Assembly: GCA_903825395.1 (NCBI GenBank) | Contig: CAIKAF010000033.1 | Coordinates: forward strand, 1 to 64,000 | Source of the DNA: an uncultured Flavobacteriales bacterium | GTDB taxonomy: Bacteria; Bacteroidota; Bacteroidia; CAIKAF01 | Direction of reading: 5' to 3' | Length of the DNA stretch: 64,000 nt | Shown here: one piece after another, positions 40,798-55,210 of the stretch | Numbering within the stretch: position 1 is the first letter of the stretch | Layout: each line of letters starts with the position of its first letter | Program-made: the position numbers and the translations under genes | The notes under the pieces: generated by a model | The model's input: only the letters and a program-made list of their open reading frames with translations | What the model was told of the DNA's origin: nothing | Databases searched by the model: none

Positions 40798-41358
40798 TTA
40801 TTTCAACATCCAAGACCCTCCAACAGCCAGTACATTGGGCAAAGCCAAATAATCAGCCATGCTTTGTTCGTTTATTCCTCCGGTAGGAATAAAGTCTATT
40901 CCCTGAAATACAGAGGCATAGGCCGATAAAGCCGAAACGCCACCAAACACATGAGCCGGGAAAAATTTCAGCACTTCCAAATCCCGCTCCATCGACTGTT
41001 GAATTTCAGTGGGACTTATGGCTCCCGGCAGAAAAGGCAGCCCCGTGTTTCTCATTGTGTTTACCAACTGCTCTGTTTGTCCGGGACTCACCAAAAAAGA
41101 GGCCCCGGCTTTGGCAGCAGCCTCTGCTCTTTCGCTGCTGCAAACCGTTCCGGCTCCTACAATCAGGTTTGAACCATAGCGCGTGGACACGTACCGAATT
41201 AGGTCAAGGGCGCTTGCCGTTCGTAGGGTAATTTCAATCACCCCTATTCCTTTTTCCAACAGGTTTGTACAGGCCAAATCGGCTTGTTCCTGAGTATGCA
41301 GAACAGCTACAGGGATGATTGAAAAGGGACTAAGGATTTCTCGAATTCCGTTTTGCAT
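40798..41358 (-). CDS. eda: KDPG/KHG aldolase
   Basis: A 186-residue class I aldolase, last step of the Entner-Doudoroff pathway: 2-keto-3-deoxy-6-phosphogluconate to pyruvate and glyceraldehyde 3-phosphate. The Schiff-base Lys is K131 (EVLKFFPAHVFGG), the catalytic Glu is in GVIEITLRT, and phosphate binding involves FIPTGGINE. Slightly short of the usual ~210 residues at the C terminus but the barrel appears complete. It follows edd by four bases. Confidence 0.94.
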   Translation of the reverse strand: MQNGIREILSPFSIIPVAVLHTQEQADLACTNLLEKGIGVIEITLRTASALDLIRYVSTRYGSNLIVGAGTVCSSERAEAAAKAGASFLVSPGQTEQLVNTMRNTGLPFLPGAISPTEIQQSMERDLEVLKFFPAHVFGGVSALSAYASVFQGIDFIPTGGINEQSMADYLALPNVLAVGGSWMLK

Positions 41359-41362
41359 GGCA

Positions 41363-43159
41363 TTAAATTAAAAAGCTGGCACCCAGTTCAGCATGGGTTA
41401 CATTGGATTTGGGCTGAGCGAAAAGTTCACGACCGCAGCCCACAAAACTACGTTCAATCTGCTGAGGACTTCGTTCTTCAAAATTGGGTTCAAGCACCTC
41501 TAAGCTGCCTGAGCGCGCATCCAGTTTTAGCCGATCTCCGGTTCGAACCCGAGCAATATTCCCCCCCTGTTTGGCTTCTGGCCAAAGATGAATGGCGGCA
41601 GGCACTTTACCTGAAGCTCCAGACATCCGGCCATCTGTAACAAGCGCCACCCGAAAACCCCGCTTTTGAAGAATGGTTAAGGAGGGTGTGAGTTTATGCA
41701 ATTCAGGCATACCATTGCTGCCCGGACCTTGAAAGGGCAAAACGGCAATGAAATCCCGATTTAATTCATTGGCTTTGAAGGCAATTAAAAACGCTTCTTG
41801 GCTTTCAAACACAATGGCCGGAGCCTCTACCAACCAATGTTCTGGATCTACTGCCGAAGTTTTAATCACCGAACGACCTAGGTTTCCCTTCAACAAGCGT
41901 ATGCCACCTGTGGGTTGGAAGGGGTCTTCGGCCGGACGCAACACCGCCTCGTTGTAGCTTTTCTCGGGCACTGTTCTCCATACAATATCGGAATTTTCAA
42001 TGCCGGATTCCCGGCAAAACTGGTCTAAGCCTGGCCCCAATATCGTATTGACATCTTGGTGCATCAAACCATTTTTCAATAGAGATCGCATAATAAAGGG
42101 TACTCCCCCGGCGGCATGAAAATGATTTACATCGGCCACCCCGTTGGGATATACTCTAGCCATCAGCGGAATAATTTCTGATAACTCAGAAAAGTCGGTC
42201 CAATCTACAATCACCCCTGCAGCCCGGGCTATGGCAATCAGGTGAATGGTGTGGTTGGTCGATCCTCCGGTAGCCAACAAACCAATAATGGCGTTCAAGA
42301 TTGCTCGTTCATCTAGAATGTAGGCCAATGCGCGCTCTTTGCGGTGATTTCGAATGTTATCAATCAACTGCCTAACTGCAAATCGGCTTAGTAATTCGCG
42401 GTGTTCTGTTCCTGGATTCACAAAACTGCTGCCCGGCAATTGAAGTCCCATCATTTCCAAGAGCATTTGATTGCTATTGGCCGTGCCATAAAAGGTACAG
42501 GTTCCCGGCGAATGATAGCTGTCCGATTCTCCTTTCAATAAGGCAGCCCGATCTATTTTTCCCTCGGCATAATCCTGCCGGATTTTTGCTTTTTCTTCAT
42601 TTGAGATTCCTGTTGGCATAGGCCCTCCTGGAACAAAGAGCGTTGGTAAATGACCAAAGGGAAGTGCCCCCATCAGCATTCCAGGTACAATTTTATCGCA
42701 AATCCCCAGCAGCAATGTACCATCAAACATATTGTGCGACAATGCCACCGCAGTACCCATGGCAATGGCATCGCGGCTAAACAAAGACAATTCCATACCA
42801 TCTGCCCCTTGGGTAATCCCGTCGCACATGGCAGGAACACCGCCGGCAACCTGTGCTACGGCTCCCGCTTCCAATGCCCAATCGCGCAGTTTTGGAGGGT
42901 AAGATTCATAGGGCTTATGGGCAGAAAGCATATCGTTGTAGGCGGTCACAATGGCCAGATTCGGCTGCTCTTCAGCGCGCAAGCGTTCCTTTTCTTGGGC
43001 AGAACAACCGGCAAAGCCATGAGCCAAGTTTCCACAACCCATTCCCGAGCGGGTAACTTCAGTTCTAAATTGCGATTCCATCTGCCCAAGAAATTGCTCT
43101 CGAGTAGGCTTACTTCGCTCAACCACCCGTTGAGTTACACGTGCTAAAATTGGATTCAT
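41363..43159 (-). CDS. edd: 6-phosphogluconate dehydratase
   Basis: A 598-residue enzyme of the IlvD/Edd family that dehydrates 6-phosphogluconate to KDPG. Edd marks include NLAIVTAYNDMLSAHKPYES, GTCTFYGTANSNQMLLEMMG (cluster Cys in TCTF), LLATGGSTNHTIHLIAIARA, and LVTDGRMSGASGKVPAAIH. A Cys in LGICDKIVPGM probably completes the iron-sulfur ligands. IlvD is less likely because of the length, the N-terminal pattern and the direct neighbours pgl and eda. Confidence 0.95.
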   Translation of the reverse strand: MNPILARVTQRVVERSKPTREQFLGQMESQFRTEVTRSGMGCGNLAHGFAGCSAQEKERLRAEEQPNLAIVTAYNDMLSAHKPYESYPPKLRDWALEAGAVAQVAGGVPAMCDGITQGADGMELSLFSRDAIAMGTAVALSHNMFDGTLLLGICDKIVPGMLMGALPFGHLPTLFVPGGPMPTGISNEEKAKIRQDYAEGKIDRAALLKGESDSYHSPGTCTFYGTANSNQMLLEMMGLQLPGSSFVNPGTEHRELLSRFAVRQLIDNIRNHRKERALAYILDERAILNAIIGLLATGGSTNHTIHLIAIARAAGVIVDWTDFSELSEIIPLMARVYPNGVADVNHFHAAGGVPFIMRSLLKNGLMHQDVNTILGPGLDQFCRESGIENSDIVWRTVPEKSYNEAVLRPAEDPFQPTGGIRLLKGNLGRSVIKTSAVDPEHWLVEAPAIVFESQEAFLIAFKANELNRDFIAVLPFQGPGSNGMPELHKLTPSLTILQKRGFRVALVTDGRMSGASGKVPAAIHLWPEAKQGGNIARVRTGDRLKLDARSGSLEVLEPNFEERSPQQIERSFVGCGRELFAQPKSNVTHAELGASFLI

Positions 43160-43165
43160 GGTCGT

Positions 43166-43840
43166 TTACTTTGTAAAATACACTTCAAGATTTGAGCAGG
43201 TTTCCTGAACAAGCGAGATGGGAGTTTGGTTTACCTTGGCATCAAGCCACACCTGTTTTTTATCCTCGCCCGAAAACAACACATACACCTGTTTCGCACG
43301 TTGAACAACCGGCAAGCTCACCGAAATTCGTTGAATCGGATGACTGGGCGCTTGGGTAAATAAAACATCAGGAGAATCCATTAGCAAACCGAGTTCAGAG
43401 CTTTTATCGCCGGGGAACAGAGAGGCTGTATGTCCATCAAGTCCCATACCCAATAAGCAAAGATAGGGCATAACCTGCAACTCAGCGTACTCTTTCGTCA
43501 CCGCAACCAAATTCAAATCTGGATTTTCAAGATGCGGCAGCATTCCATGGAAGTTGGCACCTTCAAGCCAGCAGCGTTGAAAGGCAAGCTGCACCATTCT
43601 TTGGTTGGATAGGATATCGGTTGGGGGCACGCAACGGTCGTCCACCAAAAAAACATGAATTCGATTCCATGGCAAATCCTGATTGGCAAGCCTTTCATAA
43701 AAAGGCTGGGGAGTGCTTCCGCCCGAAAGCAGCCAAGCCACGTTGCTGGAAGAAATTAAGGCATCCTGGGTTTTTGTCAACCATGATTCCCCAAGGGCCA
43801 TCAAAAGTTGGGGAAGGCCAGGGCGTTCAATCCACTGCAT
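43166..43840 (-). CDS. pgl: 6-phosphogluconolactonase
   Basis: A 224-residue DevB-type lactonase that opens 6-phosphogluconolactone. Marks: VAWLLSGGSTPQPFYERLAN, WNRIHVFLVDDRCVPPTDIL and SNQRM, CLLGMGLDGHTASLFPG, and RISVSLPVVQRAKQVYVLFS. I take the ATG at 43840, overlapping the zwf stop by 14 bases; an upstream ATG at 43861 is an alternative. It sits between zwf and edd, filling the step between them. Confidence 0.93.
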   Translation of the reverse strand: MQWIERPGLPQLLMALGESWLTKTQDALISSSNVAWLLSGGSTPQPFYERLANQDLPWNRIHVFLVDDRCVPPTDILSNQRMVQLAFQRCWLEGANFHGMLPHLENPDLNLVAVTKEYAELQVMPYLCLLGMGLDGHTASLFPGDKSSELGLLMDSPDVLFTQAPSHPIQRISVSLPVVQRAKQVYVLFSGEDKKQVWLDAKVNQTPISLVQETCSNLEVYFTK

Positions 43841-45308
43841 AGCCTTTGGTATTCCAAACATGGTCTTCCAACATCACAGCCTGTCCAGGCCCCCAAGTCC
43901 CAGCTTCATATAAAACCACAGGCAATTGAACATCCTTCCAGCTTTTGGTTATGGATTCTATCCAATTCCAAGAGGCTTCCAATTCATCTTGCCGCATAAA
44001 AAGGGTTTGATTGCCCCTTACCACGTCCATAATAAGGCGCTCGTAAGCCTCTGGAAAACGTTCTTTAAAATTATCTACAAAATCCAATTTCAATGCAATA
44101 GGCTTATATCTGTATCCGCCCGGACCGGGAATTTTAGTCATTTGAACCAATTCAATCCGTTCTTCAGGCTGCAAGCGGATGATTAGCTTATTGGCAGGAA
44201 TTTCTTCACCAGAGGGGAAAATATTGTGCGCTACAGGTCTAAAATTGATTACAATTTCAGAATACCGCTTGGGCATCCGTTTGCCGGTTCGCAAATAGAA
44301 GGGCACGCCTTTCCAACGCCAGTTATCGACAAATGTGGTTAGCGCAACAAAAGTTTCTGTTTTAGAGTCGAATTTTTCAATGTCTTCCAAATACGACGAA
44401 ACCGAAGCCCCTGCAATTTTTCCTCGGGTATATTGCCCCTTTACAGAATGGGTTTTGATGTTTTTCTTAGTAAAGGGCCTTAGGGCATATAAAACCTTAA
44501 GCTTTTCATTCCGCACAAAATCAGCTTCCAATAAATGAGGCGGCTCCATGGCCACCAAACAGAGCAATTGAAGCAAATGATTCTGTACCATATCCAACAA
44601 TGCCCCACTTTGGTCGTAATATCCAGCCCTACTTTGAACTCCCAAACTTTCGGCCACAGTAATTTGTACATTTTCAATGTGCTGACTATTCCAAGCATGT
44701 TCAAACAAGTGGTTTGCAAACCGCAACACCATCAGGTTTTGAACCGTTTCTTTTCCCAAATAGTGGTCAATCCGATACACCTGGTTTTCCTGAAATGACT
44801 CAGCCACTTGACGATTAATGTCAATGGCAGTGGCCAAACTATTCCCCAATGGCTTTTCTAATACAACCTTACTTTGGTTATTGATCAATCCATTTTCACG
44901 CAAGGCCGAAGAAATTGGACCAAATGCGGAAGAGGGAGTCGAAAAATAAAAAATGGTAGGAGCCTTTTTGTATGGATTTAATGCCTGAGACAGGTTGGAA
45001 TAGGATTTTGGAGTATAGTCGGGAACTTGAACCAATTCAATTTTACTTAAAAAGACCTGGGCATGTGGACTGCTTGAGTATTCTTTTCCAGACTCATGAA
45101 TAAAATCAAGAACCGATTTCAAAAAATCATCTAGGCTACGTTCGCGCCGGCATACTGCAAAAATCTTAAACTCCTCCGTAATTTGACCATCGTACAATCG
45201 ATGAAACAGGGCAGGATAAATTTTGCGCAATGCCAAATCACCATCACCACCGAAAATTACAAAATTGAATGGATTGAAACTTTCCTTTTTTGCCTTACTC
45301 ATATTCAT
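43827..45308 (-). CDS. zwf: glucose-6-phosphate 1-dehydrogenase
   Basis: A 493-residue NAD(P)-dependent enzyme that commits glucose 6-phosphate to the oxidative branch. Marks: FVIFGGDGDLALRKIYPALF nucleotide fold (a GGDGDLA form where GASGDLA is usual), RIDHYLGKETVQNLMVLRFA with the substrate-binding and catalytic His, and KGVPFYLRTGKRMPKRYSEI. First gene of zwf-pgl-edd-eda. A palindromic operator surrounds its TATATTTG promoter element 24-37 bases upstream. Confidence 0.95.
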   Translation of the reverse strand: MNMSKAKKESFNPFNFVIFGGDGDLALRKIYPALFHRLYDGQITEEFKIFAVCRRERSLDDFLKSVLDFIHESGKEYSSSPHAQVFLSKIELVQVPDYTPKSYSNLSQALNPYKKAPTIFYFSTPSSAFGPISSALRENGLINNQSKVVLEKPLGNSLATAIDINRQVAESFQENQVYRIDHYLGKETVQNLMVLRFANHLFEHAWNSQHIENVQITVAESLGVQSRAGYYDQSGALLDMVQNHLLQLLCLVAMEPPHLLEADFVRNEKLKVLYALRPFTKKNIKTHSVKGQYTRGKIAGASVSSYLEDIEKFDSKTETFVALTTFVDNWRWKGVPFYLRTGKRMPKRYSEIVINFRPVAHNIFPSGEEIPANKLIIRLQPEERIELVQMTKIPGPGGYRYKPIALKLDFVDNFKERFPEAYERLIMDVVRGNQTLFMRQDELEASWNWIESITKSWKDVQLPVVLYEAGTWGPGQAVMLEDHVWNTKGYAVD

Positions 45309-45325: not shown

Positions 45326-45345
45326 TTGGTACAAATATACACCAA
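45326..45345 (-). promoter_or_regulatory. zwf promoter/operator palindrome
   Basis: On the minus strand TTGGTGTATATTTGTACCAA, with arms TTGGT / ACCAA around the -7 element TATATTTG (45332-45339). A very similar core precedes the divergent sugar operon. A second, weaker site TAGTGTAAAAATGACAA lies just upstream (about 45347-45363). A regulator bound here would cover the -7 element. The -33 TTG is missing. Confidence 0.6.
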
Positions 45346-45365
45346 ATTGTCATTTTTACACTAAG

Positions 45366-46106
45366 TTAAAATCCGAAGTTATCAAAACCTGTTTCCACCA
45401 GTTTTTGATACTTAATTTCATTGAATTTATAAAAACTAGATGGTTTATGTGGAACTCCCTCTTGTTTTTCATCCAAATGAGTCAGGATATCCAATTTTTG
45501 GATTTTCCTTCTAAAATTTCGTTTGTCCAGAGGCTTATCTAAGATGGCCTCATACAATCGATGCAATTGGCCTAGAGTGAACTTTACCGGAAGTAAATTA
45601 AACCCCACGGGTTTAATTGCGATGGTTTCGCGAAGTCGTTTAAGACATGTGGTCAAAATTCGATTGTGGTCAAAAGCCAAATCACCTACATCCTGAATCG
45701 GCACCCATTGTACACTTCGAGCAAAGGATGCCGGCTGAGGCGTATAGTCATTCATATTGACCAAGGAGAAAAATGCGATGGTAATAACGCGCACATCGGG
45801 TTCTTGACGCACTGTTTTTAGCCATTCCCTATCTTTTGGCTTAGCCAATCGATTGGGGTCGCCAAAGGCACCTGCCTGTTGAAGAAACAAATCCGTTAAG
45901 CCTGTCAGTTCAAATAAAACCCGTTCTGCAGCCATCTCTAGATTTTCATTTTCAAAAATCAAGTCGCCCGGCAAGGCCAAAACATCATCTGTTCTGCCAT
46001 CGGAAAGGCTACGGCCAATCAATAGAACGTTTAAATTTTCATCGTCAAAGCCCAGTATAACATTGTCTACAGAAACCCTGGGATTTAAATCATGAAGGTG
46101 TGGCAT
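45366..46106 (-). CDS. NrtR-type NUDIX/winged-helix regulator
   Basis: A 246-residue protein. The NUDIX-like domain (~10-150) keeps only a degenerate box (GDLIFENENLEMAAERVLFE then LTG), lacking the Glu pair needed for hydrolysis, as in ligand-sensing NrtR proteins. A winged helix follows (~165-230: FTLGQLHRLYEAILDKPLDK, RNFRRKIQKL). NrtR relatives in Bacteroidota control sugar use (AraR of Bacteroides). The ATG at 46106 is chosen because a TATTTTTG promoter element lies at 46123-46130. Position between zwf and the maltose genes points to it as their regulator. Confidence 0.85.
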   Translation of the reverse strand: MPHLHDLNPRVSVDNVILGFDDENLNVLLIGRSLSDGRTDDVLALPGDLIFENENLEMAAERVLFELTGLTDLFLQQAGAFGDPNRLAKPKDREWLKTVRQEPDVRVITIAFFSLVNMNDYTPQPASFARSVQWVPIQDVGDLAFDHNRILTTCLKRLRETIAIKPVGFNLLPVKFTLGQLHRLYEAILDKPLDKRNFRRKIQKLDILTHLDEKQEGVPHKPSSFYKFNEIKYQKLVETGFDNFGF

Positions 46107-46122
46107 ATATAAGATTGGAGTG

Positions 46123-46130
46123 CAAAAATA
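46123..46130 (-). promoter_or_regulatory. putative -7 element of the NrtR-type regulator
   Basis: TATTTTTG followed by CA on the minus strand, 17 bases before the chosen ATG. Its position inside the longer possible frame supports the shorter start. No clear TTG at -33. Confidence 0.4.
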
Positions 46131-46145
46131 AAAAGAAAGCGTATC

Positions 46146-46170
46146 TTGGTAGTGTATATTTGACACTAAG
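46146..46170 (+). promoter_or_regulatory. operator/promoter of the sugar kinase-maltose operon
   Basis: Contains TAGTGTATATTTGACACTA (46150-46168), arms TAGTGT / ACACTA around TATATTTG (46155-46162), preceded by TTGG and followed by AG. It shares the GTGTATATTTG core and flanking dyad with the zwf site. A second -7 candidate, TAACTTTG, is at 46174-46181. Sitting between divergent genes, it could control both the regulator and the sugar operon. Confidence 0.6.
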
Positions 46171-46188
46171 ATTTAACTTTGTGGCTGT

Positions 46189-47058
46189 ATGAGACTAATA
46201 GTTGACAGCGGTTCTACCAAAGCAGATTGGGTTCTTTGCAACGAAGATGAAATGGTTTCATCCTTCAATACAATAGGGTTTAACCCCTATTTCATGAATT
46301 CATCGGATGTGGTAGCCTATTTAAATCAAAGGCAGGATTTGTGTGAAATTGCCACATCCATTCGCGAAATCTTTTTTTATGGAGCAGGATGTTCCGATCC
46401 GCATATGAACAGCATCATCAAGTCTGCCTTATCTGATTTTTTTCAAGGGGCTCAGGTTACGGTTGACCACGATTTACATGCTGCCGCCTTTGCTCTATAT
46501 TCAGGAAATCCTTTAATAGCCTGCATCCTAGGTACCGGCAGCAATTCCTGTTTTTATGACGGCTGTTCGTTTCGGGAGGAAGCGCCAGCCCTTGGGTTTA
46601 TTTTAGGGGATGAAGCGAGCGGCAGCTTTTTCGGCAAATATTTAATTCGTGATTATCAATACAACCGCATGCCCTTGGACTTGCGGCGTGATTTTGAGAC
46701 GCATTTTGAAACGCGCTGGAGTGAAATAGTTTCTCAGGTGTATCAAAGTTCCAGAGCCAATGTACGCCTAGCCTCTTACTTTCCATTTGCAGTAAATCAC
46801 TCCAACCACCCCTATATTCTCAATTTAATAGAAACAGGTTTTAACTTGTTTCTAGATTACCATGTACTATGCTACCCAGAAGCGACTTCTAGGCAGGCCG
46901 AAGTAAGCTGCATCGGATCGGTAGGTTACCATTTTAAACCCCTTCTTTCTAAACTGATTGAAGATAAAGGCCTTCGCTTGGGTAAAATCATCCAAAAACC
47001 CATTCAAAGCTTAGTTTTACATCATTCCAATATGAAAAAAAACGCATTACATGAATAA
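46189..47058 (+). CDS. BadF/BadG-type sugar kinase
   Basis: A 289-residue ASKHA-fold kinase. The phosphate-binding loops are VDSGSTKADWVLC at residues 4-16 and CILGTGSNSCFYDG near 110-123, followed by GFILGDEASGSFFGKYLI. This is the N-acetylglucosamine kinase-like BadF/BadG group. No amino sugar genes are nearby; it heads an operon for maltose breakdown in which free glucose is released, so it may serve as the glucokinase. That substrate is inferred. The GH13 gene overlaps it by eight bases. Confidence 0.8.
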   Translation: MRLIVDSGSTKADWVLCNEDEMVSSFNTIGFNPYFMNSSDVVAYLNQRQDLCEIATSIREIFFYGAGCSDPHMNSIIKSALSDFFQGAQVTVDHDLHAAAFALYSGNPLIACILGTGSNSCFYDGCSFREEAPALGFILGDEASGSFFGKYLIRDYQYNRMPLDLRRDFETHFETRWSEIVSQVYQSSRANVRLASYFPFAVNHSNHPYILNLIETGFNLFLDYHVLCYPEATSRQAEVSCIGSVGYHFKPLLSKLIEDKGLRLGKIIQKPIQSLVLHHSNMKKNALHE

Positions 47059-48409
47059 TATCAACTCAACACTTAAAGCAGCAGGGATTACCTTGCTGCT
47101 TTTTTTTATCGCGTTTAAATCGGTTAAGGCTCAACCTGAATGGTCGAAGAACGTGGTCTTATACGAGATGAATGTTCGGCAATTCAGTCCAGAGGGTACA
47201 TTTGCCGCAGCCATGAACCACCTACCTAGGTTGAAAGAAATGGGAATTGATGTAGTTTGGCTTATGCCTATTCATCCCATTGGAATGAAAAACAGGAAAG
47301 GGAGCTTAGGAAGTTATTATGCTGTAAAGGATTACAGAAAAATCAATCCCGAGTTTGGGAAGGAAATTGATTTTAATGCATTTGTTGAAGAAGCACATCG
47401 TTTGGGTTTAAAGGTAATTATTGATTGGGTTGCCAACCATACCTCGCCAGACCACCCATGGGTTACTGAAAAAAAAGCGGATTGGTACAACCGAGATTCT
47501 ATTGGTCAAGTTATTCCTCCTCCAGGAACCGATTGGTTTGATGTCGCTGATCTTAACTACAATTCAAAAGCCATGCGGAAACAAATGATCAGCGATATGT
47601 GTTTTTGGTTAACTGAATACAATATCGATGGTTTTCGATGCGATGTTGCAGATTGGGTACCTGTAGATTTCTGGAACGAGGCCAGAATGGCATTGGATAA
47701 AATTAAGCCTGTATTTATGCTTGCTGAAGCAGAAAACCCCGACCATCATGATCGAGCTTTCGATATGAGCTACGCTTGGGAGTTTCACCATATTTTGAAT
47801 GAGGTGGCCCAAGGAAAAAAATCGGCCCTGCATTTAGGGGAATACATTGCCAAAGAAAAATCCAAATTCCCGACCAAGGCTTATCGCTTATCCTTTACCG
47901 ACAACCACGATGAAAATTCATGGAACGGCACCACTACTGAGCGCCTAGGTCAATTGCGGTTTAGCATGGCGGCTCTAAGTGCGACTTGCTTCGGTATGCC
48001 CTTATTGTATTCGGGGCAAGAGGCAGATTTACAAAAAAGGTTACGGTTTTTTGAGAAAGACACCATTCCATGGAATGGATACTCCCTGCAGCGGTTCTAC
48101 TCCTACTTGTTTCAACTAAAAAAGAACAATCCTGCACTTTGGAATGGAGCGTATGGGGTGTTTCCAGCGGTTGAAAATGCTACACCAAATGAAAGCACGT
48201 TCGCAATTTCAAGAATTAAAGATGAGCATGGATTCTATGCTGTATTTAATTTCAGTCCACAACCCCAATGGGTTGAGGTTATATGGAACAAGGAACCGGG
48301 GCAAGTTCAAGACGTATTCTCAGGCCAATCAATTTTTATTCCCAAGCAATTTGGCCAATTGCTTCAACCCTACGAGTTCCGCCTATTTTCTCAAAAAATC
48401 AAACCATGA
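47051..48409 (+). CDS. GH13 alpha-amylase family enzyme
   Basis: A 452-residue protein with a signal peptide (ITLLLFFIAFKSVKAQ). GH13 regions seen: VIIDWVANHTSPDHPW (region I), GFRCDVADWVP with the nucleophile Asp (II), FMLAEAENPDHH with the acid Glu (III), and RLSFTDNHDENSW (IV). It lacks a T9SS domain, so it is likely periplasmic and cuts maltodextrins for the transporter. The exact specificity is unclear. The transporter gene overlaps it by four bases (ATGA). Confidence 0.9.
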   Translation: MNNINSTLKAAGITLLLFFIAFKSVKAQPEWSKNVVLYEMNVRQFSPEGTFAAAMNHLPRLKEMGIDVVWLMPIHPIGMKNRKGSLGSYYAVKDYRKINPEFGKEIDFNAFVEEAHRLGLKVIIDWVANHTSPDHPWVTEKKADWYNRDSIGQVIPPPGTDWFDVADLNYNSKAMRKQMISDMCFWLTEYNIDGFRCDVADWVPVDFWNEARMALDKIKPVFMLAEAENPDHHDRAFDMSYAWEFHHILNEVAQGKKSALHLGEYIAKEKSKFPTKAYRLSFTDNHDENSWNGTTTERLGQLRFSMAALSATCFGMPLLYSGQEADLQKRLRFFEKDTIPWNGYSLQRFYSYLFQLKKNNPALWNGAYGVFPAVENATPNESTFAISRIKDEHGFYAVFNFSPQPQWVEVIWNKEPGQVQDVFSGQSIFIPKQFGQLLQPYEFRLFSQKIKP

Positions 48410-49917
48410 CGCCAAAAAAAGAACTTTCATGGTGGCAAATCTGGAACATGAGTTTTGGATTTTTGGGAATTCAATTTGGATTTGCCCTGCAAAATGCCAA
48501 TACAAGCCGGATATTTCAAACCCTTGGAGCAGAAGAACAAAGCCTTCCTATTTTATGGTTGGCAGCTCCCGTTACAGGATTGTTGGTTCAGCCCATTATT
48601 GGTTATTATAGCGACAGAACTTGGCATCCGGTTTGGGGTAGACGAAGGCCCTATTTTGCTTTGGGGGCCATCCTTGCATCCTTAGCTTTAATCGCCATGC
48701 CCAATTCCCCCAGCCTATGGATGGCAGCAGGCATGCTTTGGATTATGGATGCATCCATCAACATCAGCATGGAACCCTTTCGAGCATTTGTAGGCGACTT
48801 GCTTCCTCCCAGTCAACGTACCATTGGCTTCGCCATGCAAAGTTTTTTTATTGGAATTGGAGCCGTTGTGGCTTCTGCATTACCTTGGATACTCAGCAAT
48901 TGGTTTAGTCTTGAAAATACAGCTCAAAGCGGTCACATCGCAGCATCTGTAAAATGGTCGTACTATATCGGTGCAGCTGTTTTTCTGGCGGCAGTTCTGT
49001 TTACTGTATTTTCTACCAAAGAATATCCCCCAAACCCAAAGGAACAAGAAGAGAACAATTTAAAAACGGCACCACTCAACATAAAATTCAAACCCAGAAC
49101 CTACCAAATCATTGGAATGGCTCTTTTAGTTGCCACACTCTGCCTTGCTTTTTGGATTCATTCCCAGCAGCTTGAAAAGGAATTGTACGTCTTGGCAGGA
49201 ATTTTTTGCCTTTTTGGACTAGCCTATCTAAGCTCGGGCATTTTAATGGGGAAAAATATTTACCGGATCGGTTTTGTTCAAATGGTTCGTGACTTTCAAA
49301 ATATGCCAAAAACTATGATTCAATTGGCCTTTGTCCAATTTTTTTCATGGTTTGCTTTATTTGCCATGTGGATTTACACTACTTCCGCCGTTACCTCACA
49401 CATTTATGGTACAAGAGATACAAGTTCAAAACTTTTTAATGACGGGGGTGACTGGGTTTCTGTTTTGTTCTCCGTCTACAATGGAATCGCAGCATTAGTG
49501 GCCTTTGGATTGCCCGTTTTAGCTAAAAAAATTGGCCGACAATACACCCACTTAATTTCGTTGTGGCTGGGAGGAATCGGATTGATTTCTATCTATTTCA
49601 TTTCCAATCCAACCCTTTTGATTGTTCCAATGATTGGAGTTGGAATTGCTTGGGCGAGTATTTTATCCATTCCTTATGCCTTGCTAAGCACCTCAATTCC
49701 TCAGCACAAAATGGGGTATTACATGGGGATTTTTAATTTTTTTATTGTCATTCCGCAAATGGTTGCGGCCAGCATTTTAGGGTATATGGTTCAACATTGG
49801 TTTGAAGGTCAGAGCATTTTCGCACTTGTTGTGGGCGGGATTTCAATGTTGTTTGCAGGATTTTTAAATGTTTTTATCGGAGAAAAAGCAAGGGTAACAG
49901 CACCATCTGACCTATGA
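48406..49917 (+). CDS. MFS sugar transporter, SLC45/maltose type
   Basis: A 503-residue membrane protein. The ATG at 48406 overlaps the previous stop; upstream in-frame codons lie inside the GH13 gene. About twelve helices. Marks of the SLC45-like group: GFLGIQFGFALQNANTSRIF, APVTGLLVQPIIGYYSDRTW, GRRRPYFALGAIL, and SIPYALLSTSIPQHKMGYYM followed by GIFNFFIVIPQ. Proton-coupled uptake of maltose fits the phosphorylase two genes later. No PTS or ABC parts are present. Confidence 0.9.
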   Translation: MTPKKELSWWQIWNMSFGFLGIQFGFALQNANTSRIFQTLGAEEQSLPILWLAAPVTGLLVQPIIGYYSDRTWHPVWGRRRPYFALGAILASLALIAMPNSPSLWMAAGMLWIMDASINISMEPFRAFVGDLLPPSQRTIGFAMQSFFIGIGAVVASALPWILSNWFSLENTAQSGHIAASVKWSYYIGAAVFLAAVLFTVFSTKEYPPNPKEQEENNLKTAPLNIKFKPRTYQIIGMALLVATLCLAFWIHSQQLEKELYVLAGIFCLFGLAYLSSGILMGKNIYRIGFVQMVRDFQNMPKTMIQLAFVQFFSWFALFAMWIYTTSAVTSHIYGTRDTSSKLFNDGGDWVSVLFSVYNGIAALVAFGLPVLAKKIGRQYTHLISLWLGGIGLISIYFISNPTLLIVPMIGVGIAWASILSIPYALLSTSIPQHKMGYYMGIFNFFIVIPQMVAASILGYMVQHWFEGQSIFALVVGGISMLFAGFLNVFIGEKARVTAPSDL

Positions 49918-50567
49918 ATACAATTAAAGCCTTAATTTTTGATTTAGACGGGGTGTTGGTAAGTACCGAGCACAATCACTTTTTGGCCTGGAAACGCATC
50001 GCCGATACCTTGAACATTCCATTCAATGAAAATGAAAATGAATTGCTAAAGGGCTTAAGTAGAGAAAAGTCCCTTGAAACCCTTTTATCGCTCGACAATC
50101 GACAGGTTTCTGCATCTGAATTCGAGGAATTACTGCGGGTGAAAAATGAGGCTTATTTGAACTCCGTTGCTCATTTATCGCCTCAAGATTGCCTTCCAGG
50201 CGTTACAGAATTAATCGATGCAGCAAAAAAAGCCAATCTTAAACTGGCGGTGGGCTCGGCAAGCCGCAATGCCAAATTAATCTTACAGCGCATTGAACTG
50301 GATTCAATTATGGATACCATTGTTGACGGCCACGCTGTAAAAAAGACCAAACCCGACCCTGAGGTTTTCTTACGTGCTGCAAAAAATCTTCAACTTTCCC
50401 CAGCAGAATGCCTTGTTTTTGAAGATGCAGAAAGTGGAGTACAGGCCGCTCTAGATGGAGGGTTTATGGTTATTGGGGTGGGAAATCCCTCTTTAAAAAA
50501 CAGGGTATCCAGATACATACCATCGCTTCACAACTTTAATATAAATGAATATGAAATCCTTGGTTGA
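49914..50567 (+). CDS. pgmB: beta-phosphoglucomutase
   Basis: A 217-residue HAD enzyme that turns beta-glucose 1-phosphate into glucose 6-phosphate. The nucleophile motif LIFDLDGVLVSTEHNHFLAW is at the N terminus, the cap holds GLSREKSLETLLSL, motif II is KLAVGSASRNAKLIL, and motif IV is CLVFEDAESGVQAALDGGF. Neighbouring maltose phosphorylase makes its substrate. It overlaps the transporter gene by four bases. Confidence 0.95.
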   Translation: MNTIKALIFDLDGVLVSTEHNHFLAWKRIADTLNIPFNENENELLKGLSREKSLETLLSLDNRQVSASEFEELLRVKNEAYLNSVAHLSPQDCLPGVTELIDAAKKANLKLAVGSASRNAKLILQRIELDSIMDTIVDGHAVKKTKPDPEVFLRAAKNLQLSPAECLVFEDAESGVQAALDGGFMVIGVGNPSLKNRVSRYIPSLHNFNINEYEILG

Positions 50568-52848
50568 GATTCACCCCTGGAAATTGATTGACCGGGATTT
50601 TAACCCCTCAAAACAAAAGCAGGCTGAATCGCTGTTTAGCATCGGGAATGGAAGCTTTGGCCAACGGGCTAATTTTGAAGAAGATTATTCAGGGCCAAGC
50701 TTGCAAGGCAGTTACATCGGGGGAGTGTATTATCCCGATAAAACCCGCGTAGGCTGGTGGAAAAATGGGTATCCTGATTATTTTGCCAAGGTGCTCAACT
50801 CTGCAAACTGGATAGGACTGCACCTTCGGGTAAATGGATTTGTATTGGATGCTTTTACCTTGCCAATCACGAATTTCTATCGAGAACTCGATTTGAAAAG
50901 TGGTCTTCTTACCCGCAAGCTAACCTACACATTGGCAGATTCCACCCAAATTAGCATTACCGCCCTTCGATTTTGTTCAATGGCGAATGAACATCTGGCA
51001 TGCACCCAATTTTCAATAACAACCAACCGGCCTTGTAGCGTTGAAATTGAAGCGTATGTAGATGGTAAAGTGAAAAACCACGACGCGAATTACGATGAAT
51101 ATTTTTGGCAACCTCTTCGAGCTGATGCATCCCAAAATCATCTGGAGTTAGAACAAAAAACAAAAAAAACGGAGTTTCACGTCGCATATAGCCTCGACCA
51201 AGCCTGGACTGTAATCAATGGCATTGAATCTGACACCCCTAGCACATCTAAAACCAATGAGTTTGCAGCGGAAAAAAGAACCTTCAATCTTCAAATGAAT
51301 GGAGAAATTTCTTTGACTCGCTTTGTTGGAATTTCAAGTAGCCTATCCGATGAAGGGGATAACCTTTTGGATATTGCAAAACAGCATAGTTCTAATGCAC
51401 AAATTCAGGGTTGGGAAGCCTCCTTGAACGCTCATATTCTTGCCTGGGATTCAATTTGGCACATGGCAGATGTAGTCATCGATGGCGATAACGCTGCCCA
51501 ACAAGGAATTCGTTTCAATATTTTTCAGCTGTTTCAAACCTACACTGGCAAAAATCCCAAATTGAACATTGGTCCCAAAGGATTTACCGGGGAAAAATAT
51601 GGAGGAGCCACATATTGGGATACCGAGGCATATTGCATTCCATTTTATCTGAAAGTGGCAGAACCTGAAGTAGCAAGGCAACTTTTGCTATACCGATTCC
51701 AACACTTAGATAAAGCCATTGAAAATGCAGCTAAACTTGGTTTCAAAGAGGGCGCAGCACTATTTCCTATGGTTACCATGAATGGAGAAGAGTGCCACAA
51801 TGAATGGGAAATCACCTTCGAAGAAATTCATCGGAATGGAGCTATTGTTTATGCCATTTACTTGTATGAAAAATATACAGGCGATGCGTCCTATGTTTTG
51901 AATTATGGCTATCAGGTCGTTTTTGCCGTTGCCCGGTTTTGGGCTCAGCGCGTAAATTGGTCCAACGACAAAAAACAATTCGTCATTTTAGGTGTAACAG
52001 GCCCGAATGAGTACGAAAACAACGTGAACAACAATTGGTACACCAATTACCTGGCCGCATGGTGCCTAAAGTATGGCATCGAAATAGCTAACCGAATTTC
52101 GGATCTAGAGCACAAACCACTTCCCGTTGAACTTCAAGAATGGGCGCACATCGCAAACAACATGTATTTAGGATGCATCCCGAATTCAGACATCTTTTTG
52201 CAAAACGATGGTTTTCTCGATAAAATCCAGTCTCTCGCATCTGAAATACCCGTAAATCAACGGCCAATCAACCAACACTGGTCTTGGGACCGCATTCTTA
52301 GGTCTGTTTTTATAAAACAAGCCGATGTACTTCAAGGCTTGTATTTCTTTGAAAATCATTTTACTACAGAAACCATTCGGGCCAATTTTGAATTTTATGA
52401 GCCCCGAACCGTCCATGAGTCGTCCTTATCTCCCTGTGTACATTCCATATTGGCATCATGGCTAGGAAAATCGGAAAAGGCCTTGGAAATGTATTTACGA
52501 ACAGCTCGGCTTGATTTGGATGACTACAACCATGAGGCCGATGAAGGGCTTCACATTACCAGCATGGCAGGAACATTTAATAGCGTGGTGGAAGGATTTG
52601 CCGGATTAAGGCTAACCGAAGATGGCATTTCATTAGAACCAAGAATTCCACTCCATTGGAATGCCCTTAAATTCAAACTTAATTACAGGGGGGCGCGTAT
52701 GCAATTTGAAATTTTCCAAGATGAAATTTGGGCTAGCATGCATGGGAAAAGTAGCCTAACTATTCAGGTATTTAAAGAAATGCTGGTAATTAAAGAAGGA
52801 GAGAAAAGGAAAATATCCACTTCAAATATAGCCTCTAATCTAAACTAA
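50545..52848 (+). CDS. GH65 maltose phosphorylase
   Basis: A 767-residue enzyme that splits maltose with phosphate into glucose and beta-glucose 1-phosphate. The N-terminal beta-sandwich holds SIGNGSFGQRANFEEDYSGP and GSYIGGVYYPDKTRVGWWKN. The catalytic (alpha/alpha)6 barrel contains GATYWDTEAYCIPFYL, GEECHNEWEITFEEIHRNGA, and the acid Glu in GPNEYENNVNNNWYTNYLAA (~residue 487). Trehalose or kojibiose phosphorylase are alternatives; the pgmB neighbour supports an inverting maltose phosphorylase. It overlaps pgmB by about 20 bases. Confidence 0.92.
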   Translation: MNMKSLVEIHPWKLIDRDFNPSKQKQAESLFSIGNGSFGQRANFEEDYSGPSLQGSYIGGVYYPDKTRVGWWKNGYPDYFAKVLNSANWIGLHLRVNGFVLDAFTLPITNFYRELDLKSGLLTRKLTYTLADSTQISITALRFCSMANEHLACTQFSITTNRPCSVEIEAYVDGKVKNHDANYDEYFWQPLRADASQNHLELEQKTKKTEFHVAYSLDQAWTVINGIESDTPSTSKTNEFAAEKRTFNLQMNGEISLTRFVGISSSLSDEGDNLLDIAKQHSSNAQIQGWEASLNAHILAWDSIWHMADVVIDGDNAAQQGIRFNIFQLFQTYTGKNPKLNIGPKGFTGEKYGGATYWDTEAYCIPFYLKVAEPEVARQLLLYRFQHLDKAIENAAKLGFKEGAALFPMVTMNGEECHNEWEITFEEIHRNGAIVYAIYLYEKYTGDASYVLNYGYQVVFAVARFWAQRVNWSNDKKQFVILGVTGPNEYENNVNNNWYTNYLAAWCLKYGIEIANRISDLEHKPLPVELQEWAHIANNMYLGCIPNSDIFLQNDGFLDKIQSLASEIPVNQRPINQHWSWDRILRSVFIKQADVLQGLYFFENHFTTETIRANFEFYEPRTVHESSLSPCVHSILASWLGKSEKALEMYLRTARLDLDDYNHEADEGLHITSMAGTFNSVVEGFAGLRLTEDGISLEPRIPLHWNALKFKLNYRGARMQFEIFQDEIWASMHGKSSLTIQVFKEMLVIKEGEKRKISTSNIASNLN

Positions 52849-52849
52849 G

Positions 52850-55210
52850 ATGTTGATTTCACGAACTCTTCGACGGCTGGTCACTGCAACTCTAACCTTT
52901 GCGTTCATCGGAGGTACAACACCTTCGTTAACATCTCAAAATTCCAACAACCGTCAGGTACTGTTGCAGGGATTTTGGTGGGATTACTGGAACAGCAATT
53001 ATCCCAATGGCTGGGCCAATTACTTGGCTAGGCTTGCCCCACGTTTAAAGCAAATGGGCATTGATGCAGTCTGGATTCCGCCCACAATTAAAAATACAAG
53101 CTCTTCCAGTGTTGGCTATGCACCCTTCGACAATTATGATTTGGGAGATAAATTTCAAAAGGGTGGGGTTAAAACCAGAATGGGCGATAAGGATGAGGTT
53201 CTACGCATGGTAGCGGTGTTAAAAGCAAATGGCATAGAGGTCATTCAAGATTTAGTCCTGAACCACCTTACTGGAGCAGGCACCTCTAATGGCGCCGGAG
53301 GAGTTGATCCAGCTGCAATGGACGACGGCAGCACGGCTAAATATAAGAATTTCAGATATGCTAGCTTCGCCTCTCCCCTACTCAGCAACAGCTCCGCATC
53401 CTACCTAAATCTATCTGGCCGTTTCCCAAAAAATTGGCAAAATTTTTATCCAAATCCCGGTAATGCCTGTTGCACAAATGAAATCAATTCGCCCTATTGG
53501 GGCCCTGATATTTCATATGAAGACAATGCCTATGGGCAAAGTTCAAATGCCACATTTAATCCTGTTCAAGGACCATCCTATATGCGTGAACAAACGCGCA
53601 ACTGGCTGATTTGGTACAAGAAACAAATGGGCTGGGACGGGGTTCGATTGGATGCCATTAAACATTTTTCGCCCATTGTAGTGGAAGACTTTCTATGGAA
53701 TCTGCAATTTAATGCACTTTGGGCCAGCGGCGGAAATGATATGTTTGCGGTTGGAGAATGGGTTGGCGGCGCACAAGAATTGGATAATTGGGCCAGTGCT
53801 GTACAAAATAGGGCCGGAACCTTTGACTTCGCCCTTAGAAATGCATTGACGGGAATTGTTTACGGAAATGGGAACTTCAATTTGGGAACTTTGCCTAATT
53901 ATCAGCAATCCAACCGGCAGCGAACCGTTCCCTTCGTCAATAACCACGATACATTTCGACCCATTCTTGACAACCAAGGAAACTACAACGGATTCAATCT
54001 TGGGAGTCAGCTTGGGCAACAAATTGAACCATCAGATCCTCGTTTTTCTTTGGCCTATGCGGCCATACTTGCTGTAGATGGCGCTCCGGAAATCTTTTTT
54101 GAAGATCTCTTCAATATCGGGTATTCTGGCAATCGATTTACCCATCAACCCGATGATTCTAATACACTTCCTGTATTTAGCGATATAGAAAACCTGATTT
54201 GGTGCCACCAAAATTTAAGGTTTAAGGAAGGGGCATATTTGGTCCGTTGGCAAGCCGAAGATGCCCTAATCATTGAACGAGATCTCAAAGCCATTATCGG
54301 CCTTAACGACAATTGGGATACTTGGCAACACCTTAGCAGTGTTCAAACTTCATTCCCTGACGGTACAGTCTTACGAGATTACTCGGGAGCAAATACAAAC
54401 ACCACTATCGTCTATGGAGGTGGGAAAGCAAATTTATCAATTCCTCCTTGCAATGGTACAGCAGCGCAAGGGCGTAGAGGTTATGCCGTATGGGCTCCTG
54501 ATGGAATTTCTACCAACTACCAGAATCCTCCCATTCGAACTGTTCAAGAATGGGAAATGGCAAACGATTTGGGCGACAGCCATTCCCAATCGTTACGCCA
54601 AGGTGGGGCCTTACCTTCTAACAGTTTAGAATGCAGAGTAGTGGGTAAAATTTTCAGCCGTGCTAACGACACCATTAAAATTGAGGTGTATCCAGAACTG
54701 CAAACTGCTGGTCTCGAAGTAATTTTACTAGACTCGATGTGCAACAGCATAGATTCAAGTTCTGGAACAGGCCCCTTATTTTTCAATCTTCCAAGTACCT
54801 ATGATGGTTGGTATACCATTCGCTTGCGGAACCAAACAGCTCAACAATCCGGTCAAAAAGCCTGGGTAAAGGTCAACTATTTAGCTCCAGAGTCAATAAA
54901 TACAAAAGCACTAAAATCGAAATGTGCATGTACATCACCGCCAATAAATGGCTTAAACTTGGAAGAAGCAGAAATCAGCGTATATCCGAATCCGACCTCA
55001 AGTTTTGCCTTCCTGGACTTTCAAAAATCCACCCAAAATCCTGTCGAATATGAAATTATTGGAATTTCAGGAAAACGGATGGGCTCCGGAATAATAGCCC
55101 AAGGAACAACAAATTTCGTTTTAAATATTAGCCACTTAGCCTCAGGAATGTACTTTTTGCAGCTCAAAGAAACTTCTTCTAAAACTGTCTTGAAGTTTAT
55201 TAAAGAGTGA
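52850..55210 (+). CDS. secreted GH13 alpha-amylase with T9SS sorting domain
   Basis: A 786-residue protein with a signal peptide (residues ~1-30). The GH13 catalytic part has IEVIQDLVLNHLTGAG, MGWDGVRLDAIKHFSP with the nucleophile Asp, MFAVGEWVGGAQELDN with the acid Glu, and VPFVNNHDTFRPILDN. A beta-rich middle domain follows. The last ~75 residues are a T9SS type A sorting domain (ISVYPNPTSSFAFLDF, HLASGMYFLQLKETSSKTVL). It should be exported to the cell surface or medium to cut starch, feeding the rest of the operon. It starts two bases after the phosphorylase. Confidence 0.93.
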   Translation: MLISRTLRRLVTATLTFAFIGGTTPSLTSQNSNNRQVLLQGFWWDYWNSNYPNGWANYLARLAPRLKQMGIDAVWIPPTIKNTSSSSVGYAPFDNYDLGDKFQKGGVKTRMGDKDEVLRMVAVLKANGIEVIQDLVLNHLTGAGTSNGAGGVDPAAMDDGSTAKYKNFRYASFASPLLSNSSASYLNLSGRFPKNWQNFYPNPGNACCTNEINSPYWGPDISYEDNAYGQSSNATFNPVQGPSYMREQTRNWLIWYKKQMGWDGVRLDAIKHFSPIVVEDFLWNLQFNALWASGGNDMFAVGEWVGGAQELDNWASAVQNRAGTFDFALRNALTGIVYGNGNFNLGTLPNYQQSNRQRTVPFVNNHDTFRPILDNQGNYNGFNLGSQLGQQIEPSDPRFSLAYAAILAVDGAPEIFFEDLFNIGYSGNRFTHQPDDSNTLPVFSDIENLIWCHQNLRFKEGAYLVRWQAEDALIIERDLKAIIGLNDNWDTWQHLSSVQTSFPDGTVLRDYSGANTNTTIVYGGGKANLSIPPCNGTAAQGRRGYAVWAPDGISTNYQNPPIRTVQEWEMANDLGDSHSQSLRQGGALPSNSLECRVVGKIFSRANDTIKIEVYPELQTAGLEVILLDSMCNSIDSSSGTGPLFFNLPSTYDGWYTIRLRNQTAQQSGQKAWVKVNYLAPESINTKALKSKCACTSPPINGLNLEEAEISVYPNPTSSFAFLDFQKSTQNPVEYEIIGISGKRMGSGIIAQGTTNFVLNISHLASGMYFLQLKETSSKTVLKFIKE

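Follow-up and report, generated by a model that had tools for sequence, protein, structure and literature searches.

The window, by which the whole analysed stretch of 64,000 nt is meant, belongs to a 2.63 Mb genome of the Bacteroidota (the host genome) and contains a region around which two sugar operons diverge. On the minus strand, one operon comprises zwf for glucose-6-phosphate dehydrogenase (43827-45308; Pfam G6PD_N and G6PD_C), pgl for 6-phosphogluconolactonase (43166-43861; Pfam Glucosamine_iso/6-phosphogluconolactonase), edd for 6-phosphogluconate dehydratase (41363-43159; Pfam ILVD_EDD domains) and eda for KDPG aldolase (40798-41358; Pfam Aldolase). On the plus strand, a gene for an ASKHA-type sugar kinase (46189-47058) is followed as second gene of the operon by a GH13 alpha-amylase-like gene (47051-48409; Pfam Alpha-amylase), an MFS sugar transporter gene (48406-49917; NCBIfam GPH sucrose symporter, under the cut-off), a beta-phosphoglucomutase-like pgmB (49914-50567; an ORF named from sequence type and context), a GH65 maltose/kojibiose phosphorylase-like gene (50545-52848; Pfam GH65 N, central and C domains) and a probable secreted GH13 amylase gene (52850-55210; an ORF adjoining the GH65 gene, its name inferred). 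A regulator gene for a protein of 246 aa (45366-46106, minus strand) is located between the two operons.

The kinase gave zero Pfam matches at 1e-3 and was assigned by its relatives among solved structures, which are ASKHA amino-sugar kinases (1zxo, 1zbs, 8ow9 'putative MurNAc kinase', 8oqw and 8oqk 'GlcNAc kinase'). In other families the gene adjoins PFK, pgmB and GH65 genes, and the order of pgmB beside kinase and GH65 is maintained there; from the PFK/GH65 context glucose is proposed as the substrate. No PFK of PF00365 was found when the complete host genome was searched, while control genomes gave matches. GAPDH was nevertheless found in the same genome, and the missing PFK suggests that the host may rely on the ED pathway to catabolise glucose.

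The regulator matched the Pfam families NrtR_WHD (2e-25), AraR_C (3e-11) and NUDIX (2e-7), all above the cut-off, and the nearest solved protein was BtAraR (5bs6; 4e-38). An AlphaFold model (mean pLDDT 86.7) gave BtAraR as the best and SoNrtR as the second full-length fold match. The gene between the sites is thus of the NrtR type, as the earlier note had proposed: an N-terminal Nudix-like ligand domain precedes a C-terminal winged HTH of the NrtR/AraR type, which is the architecture of the family, and predicted palindromic operators are located near its own gene and near target genes, as is likewise typical of the family. The score against the NCBIfam NtrR equivalog was 101 bits at a cut-off of 400. 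The Nudix signature GX5EX7REUXEEXGU is impaired, the stretch from residue 47 reading GDLIFENENLEMAAERVLFELTGL with glutamates replaced as in BtAraR (alignment, by eye). Lys179, Arg180 and Asn181, which are among the residues reading GTGT in the BtAraR crystal (PMC4666351), correspond to K195, R196 and N197 of the regulator; among 18 orthologs R196 and N197 are invariant and K195 nearly so. At other DNA contacts of BtAraR, K184 is replaced by R, K204 by H and R205 by K. In the tree the regulator was placed in a clade of 24 sequences (support 97/85), and BtAraR pairs with the protein of locus L036 (100/100). The closest named relatives are from Crocinitomicaceae/Flavobacteriales assemblies with identities of up to 64%.

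Three palindromic sites in the two intergenic gaps were considered. Site K, TAGTGT-ATATTTG-ACACTA, is TAGTGTATATTTGACACTA at 46150-46168 of the plus strand (as read), between the regulator gene and the kinase operon, and has perfect 6-bp inverted arms. Site W, TAGTGT-AAAAATG-ACAATT, is TAGTGTAAAAATGACAATT at 45345-45363 of the minus strand upstream of zwf, and its right arm is imperfect (ACAATT). Site Z, TTGGTGTATATTTGTACCAA at 45326-45345 of the minus strand, is a TTGGT/ACCAA palindrome in a register different from that of K and consists mostly of promoter. The earlier note had quoted K and Z at these positions as matching palindromes at the promoters of both arms and had mentioned W as a weaker third site upstream of the zwf palindrome; the quoted sequences and the presence of W could be reproduced. 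For the ranking of the sites the regions upstream of the regulator were taken from 80 loci in other genomes, and the best-matching site of each was retained if it had no more than two mismatches. A symmetric 19-bp matrix was trained on 48 of these sites, none of them from the genus of the host, and was applied to the window, to genome matches with at most two mismatches and to the retrieved loci. Among the 63,982 positions of the window K ranked first (23.96) and W second (20.70), followed by a third position at 11.8. Z scored -2.35, a value equalled or exceeded at 82 positions, so that the description of W as the weaker site has to be reversed.

Comparison with relatives led to the same order. 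In the congener G005 the arms of K are unchanged while its spacer ATATTTG is replaced by ATTATTG; W is identical in G005 and retained in G003 with one spacer base different. As to Z, a 19-bp indel shifts its right arm away in G005, and in G003 this arm has changed. Upstream of zwf in the Crocinitomix locus L148 a counterpart of W, TAGTGTCTTTTTGACATAA, is present and Z was not seen; loci L083 and L084 possess perfect sites 32-33 bp before zwf. The matrix ranks together with the conservation in G005, L148, L083 and L084 indicate that W, not Z, is the partner of K. Z is unsupported as an operator and was rejected as the zwf operator because of its low matrix score and the indel in G005, so that of the proposed pair both arms as targets and the kinase-side operator stand. 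K-type sites occupy the divergent regulator/kinase or regulator/PFK gaps in many families; the arrangement with PFK is present in Marivirga sericea (L170). Among the closest relatives, L138, L141, L142 and L147 gave no good site when 220 bp upstream of the regulator start, as called, were scanned, which may reflect a start-calling problem or real loss. K and W can with great confidence be regarded as putative operators of the regulator, since comparison across sequences establishes the sites, their conservation and their link to its gene.

The 11-mer GTGTATATTTG, which the earlier note had pointed out as common to both sites, is exactly shared by K and Z and has no other exact copy in the window. 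When sequences were shuffled, the two intergenic gaps had an 11-mer in common in about 0.5% of cases. The sharing is above chance, yet the 11-mer, a half-site running into a -7 element, is not the functional unit. The probable -7 element of zwf is TATATTTG at 45332-45339 (minus strand), which fits the Bacteroidota consensus TAnnTTTG and is kept in G005 and G003. The copy of TATATTTG inside K is lost in G005, which reads TATTATTG, whereas TAACTTTG at 46174-46181 (plus strand) outside K, a perfect TAnnTTTG, is kept there. The -7 element of the kinase operon is therefore probably located at 46174-46181, and TATATTTG within K is incidental in this reading. At both the K and the W promoter the start of TAnnTTTG is found exactly 24 bp past the first base of the operator. 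Among 82 oriented promoter sites from other genomes, exact TAnnTTTG occurred 2.09 times per offset at offsets 17-27 and 0.20 times elsewhere, i.e. an approximately tenfold enrichment. This geometry and the offset enrichment place the operator immediately before the -7 element, where a -33 element would be expected, which may explain the missing -33 TTG. K stands 44 bp before the start of the regulator gene itself, and its position makes autoregulation likely.

In order to follow the motif across genomes, the exact pattern WAGTGT-N7-ACACTW was counted, with the same pattern read backwards as control. In 20 genomes with an ortholog 69 sites were found (control 17), with at least one site in each of the 20. 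Seven sites (control 17) were present in 20 genomes without a family member (E 1e-10), at least one site being found in five of these, and 38 (control 22) in 20 genomes with only more distant family members. The difference between ortholog-bearing and family-free genomes was significant (Fisher p 5e-6), as was that between ortholog-bearing and paralog-only genomes (p 0.036), sites and genomes being counted in both tests as independent though they are related. Across 80 named loci that surround relatives of the regulator, the pattern was present 42 times, 39 of these intergenic, and the control was absent. The loose pattern with at most two mismatches matched the host genome 33 times as against 55 times for the reversed control; its abundance was discarded as uninformative, and placement and presence across genomes were used instead.

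The 69 sites from ortholog-bearing genomes were predominantly intergenic (55 sites), though called ORFs cover 92.5% of those loci; the 14 sites within coding sequences were excluded from the tally of targets. The distance to the start codon was at most 75 bp for 48 of 54 sites, with a median of 32.5. Among 58 first genes behind sites, Pfam matches were obtained for 10 alpha-amylases, 7 PFK, 5 GAPDH and 3 GH31 genes, as well as for 2 each of G6PD, pyruvate kinase, aldehyde dehydrogenase, MFS and TonB plug. NAD_kinase matches were as frequent as PFK matches (7), and the single member checked falls on a PFK protein; none of the top 25 families listed for the 58 genes was an NAD-synthesis family. 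Checks of single genes added PGI, PEPCK (one genome) and glutamate dehydrogenase. By local labels, some of which relied on reference genes chosen from the matches themselves, a dependence of which the Pfam tally is free, the 55 sites were divided into 27 glycolysis/ED, 19 alpha-glucan, 1 regulator alone and 8 others, the last including one more alpha-amylase. In the host genome sites precede GH13, GH31 and TonB genes (L044), namely a cyclomaltodextrinase-GH31 operon and probably the TonB receptor belonging to it. The motif is likewise present before a secreted GH13 cluster (L045). Two host matches of middling score (C23:46746 and C25:54906) lack a clear sugar function, and the exact match C30:85001, located inside a deaminase coding sequence, was taken as chance. 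The same motif before GH13, GH31 and TonB genes of the host and before PFK, PGI, GAPDH, pyruvate kinase, zwf and amylase genes of relatives points to a central regulator of sugar catabolism. The earlier note had named abundance of the motif at unrelated promoters as a refutation; the motif was instead concentrated at glycolysis/ED and alpha-glucan promoters and rare where the regulator is absent. No PF00365 PFK having been found in the host, its ED operon occupies the place of the PFK-bearing operons of relatives, a pattern that is a correlation across few genomes.

From these data we infer the following mode of action. A dimer of the NrtR/AraR-family regulator would read one GTGT half-site with each winged HTH by means of the KRN recognition helix, while the catalytically degenerate Nudix domain would sense a small molecule. 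Without inducer the dimer would sit directly before the -7 element and keep RNA polymerase from transcribing the two operons zwf-pgl-edd-eda and kinase-GH13-MFS-pgmB-GH65. Its release would probably be brought about by a hexose or a hexose phosphate, for which glucose, glucose 6-phosphate and maltose are the candidates. This explanation as a whole, with K and W as operators, repression of both operons, probable release by a hexose or hexose phosphate and a central role in sugar catabolism, appears highly likely, and repression as such likely.

That the two palindromes are incidental and K and Z resemble each other only as promoters holding the -7 element TATATTTG is true for Z, of which the half-site and TATATTTG are the conserved part, and the shared 11-mer does contain the 8-bp -7 consensus. 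For Z this reading stands; as an account of K it is very improbable, given that in G005 the arms of K are conserved despite the loss of TATATTTG, that the two best matrix matches of the window are K and W and that the motif tracks the regulator across genomes. Equally little credence is given to the view that the operators are genuine but recognised by some other factor, for instance the paralog encoded in the beta-glucan locus L041. The motif type is family-wide, and the mild enrichment in paralog-only genomes means that a paralog could read some of the sites; however, the sites flank the regulator's own gene in many families, genomes with orthologs show a stronger excess than those with paralogs only, and paralog loci bear a different palindrome, TATTGT-N7-ACAATA, in three of the 16 loci scanned. 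Activation, or a dual mode in which catabolic genes are repressed and gluconeogenic genes activated in a HexR- or Cra-like manner, is unlikely. The missing -33 TTG at both promoters would suit an activator, and two of the targets, PEPCK (in one genome) and glutamate dehydrogenase, are hard to reconcile with a repressor of catabolism alone. Against activation stand the position of the operator, which covers the -33 region a short distance before the -7 element, and the example of BtAraR, which represses until its sugar releases it (PMC4666351).

With regard to the ligand, R34 and H131 of the arabinose pocket of BtAraR are kept, F36 and F49 are replaced by Leu, and R86 aligns with Q101 of the regulator, beside the invariant R100. 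The clade of the regulator has a longer loop, GDPxRVxxxxDxxWLxxxR, with invariant R86, D92, W95, L96, R100, P103 and R106. The two leucines and the longer loop make L-arabinose an unlikely ligand. ADP-ribose or another NAD-related molecule, as for classical NrtR, would agree with the family and with SoNrtR as the next fold match, and a loop insertion rich in invariant Arg, Trp and Asp could hold a larger ligand. Such an effector is nevertheless quite unlikely in view of the sugar genes among the targets, the lack of NAD synthesis among the listed families and the correspondence of R32, H147 and F145 of the regulator to sugar-contacting residues of BtAraR. A hexose or hexose phosphate is favoured with some caution as the inducer.

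Among known systems, BtAraR (BT0354; 5bs6, 5dd4, 5ddg, 5deq), the NrtR-family L-arabinose repressor of Bacteroides, is the closest; its operators AAGTGT-AAAAAAG-ACACTT, GAGTGT-ATTTGAT-ACACCA and AAGTGT-TACTTTT-ACACCC (PMC4666351) have the same form as TAGTGT/ACACTA, which the earlier note had correctly ascribed to the family. Both proteins combine Nudix-like and winged HTH domains, an impaired Nudix signature, the KRN helix and an AGTGT-N7-ACAC operator before catabolic operons. They differ in sequence (about 33% identity in the fold alignment), clade, loop length and pocket residues, the R86 position not being strictly kept, and BtAraR is tied to the araMPRDAB arabinose genes, whereas the regulator adjoins the two operons described above and has glycolysis/ED and alpha-glucan genes as predicted targets. 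BtXylR (BT0791), likewise a sugar-linked NrtR-family regulator of the same phylum, belongs to a xylose operon (PMC3878776); no xylose genes were seen adjoining the regulator. Shewanella NrtR (3gz5/3gz6) has the same fold and domain order but governs NAD genes and responds to ADP-ribose, and no NAD-synthesis targets were seen here. HexR is an RpiR-family regulator of Proteobacteria that responds to KDPG. It has been named for central metabolism (PMC5507952) and is alike in scope, a single regulator governing zwf-edd-eda together with glycolysis and the entry of sugars; its protein family and operator are unrelated, and the likeness is an analogy only.

In the literature searched, which excluded most subscription journals and regulon databases, no NrtR-type glycolysis/maltose regulator of Bacteroidota was found besides AraR and XylR, nor was a dedicated glycolysis regulator for the phylum. 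The regulon and clade therefore appear undescribed there, NrtR-family sugar repressors as such being already known from AraR and XylR. It is reasonably probable that a third sugar-sensing branch of the NrtR family acts as central repressor of glucose catabolism and alpha-glucan use in several Bacteroidota orders. Its regulon would comprise glycolysis, the ED pathway and glucose kinase and would track the glycolytic route of the lineage, with PFK operons in many relatives and the ED operon in the host. Owing to the conserved motif and the close crystal structure, regulon and ligand are directly testable, and metabolic control would become predictable in many uncultured aquatic alpha-glucan-degrading relatives.

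Several further observations were made in the retrieved loci. A strong site at L044 6663 (G000:C15:59662) is located 36 bp before a gene for 1280 aa which matches nothing but PATR (autotransporter repeat), and that weakly, diverges from the cyclomaltodextrinase operon and possibly encodes an alpha-glucan surface protein. In one family a second divergent copy of the regulator gene adjoins the first (L014 2253-2963, L015 2239-2949), with a very long tree branch of 2.44. The host genome carries one paralog, an NrtR-family gene that is 41-45% identical and occupies L041 11125-11829 (G000:C3:57139-57786) on the minus strand; its locus is of the beta-glucan type and includes SusC/SusD, GH16 and GH3 genes. 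The palindrome TATTGT-N7-ACAATA of the paralog loci was found four times in 88 kb (control 0), at L041 4501, L050 6592 and L241 4166 and 4314, and may be a variant of the operator used by the paralogs.
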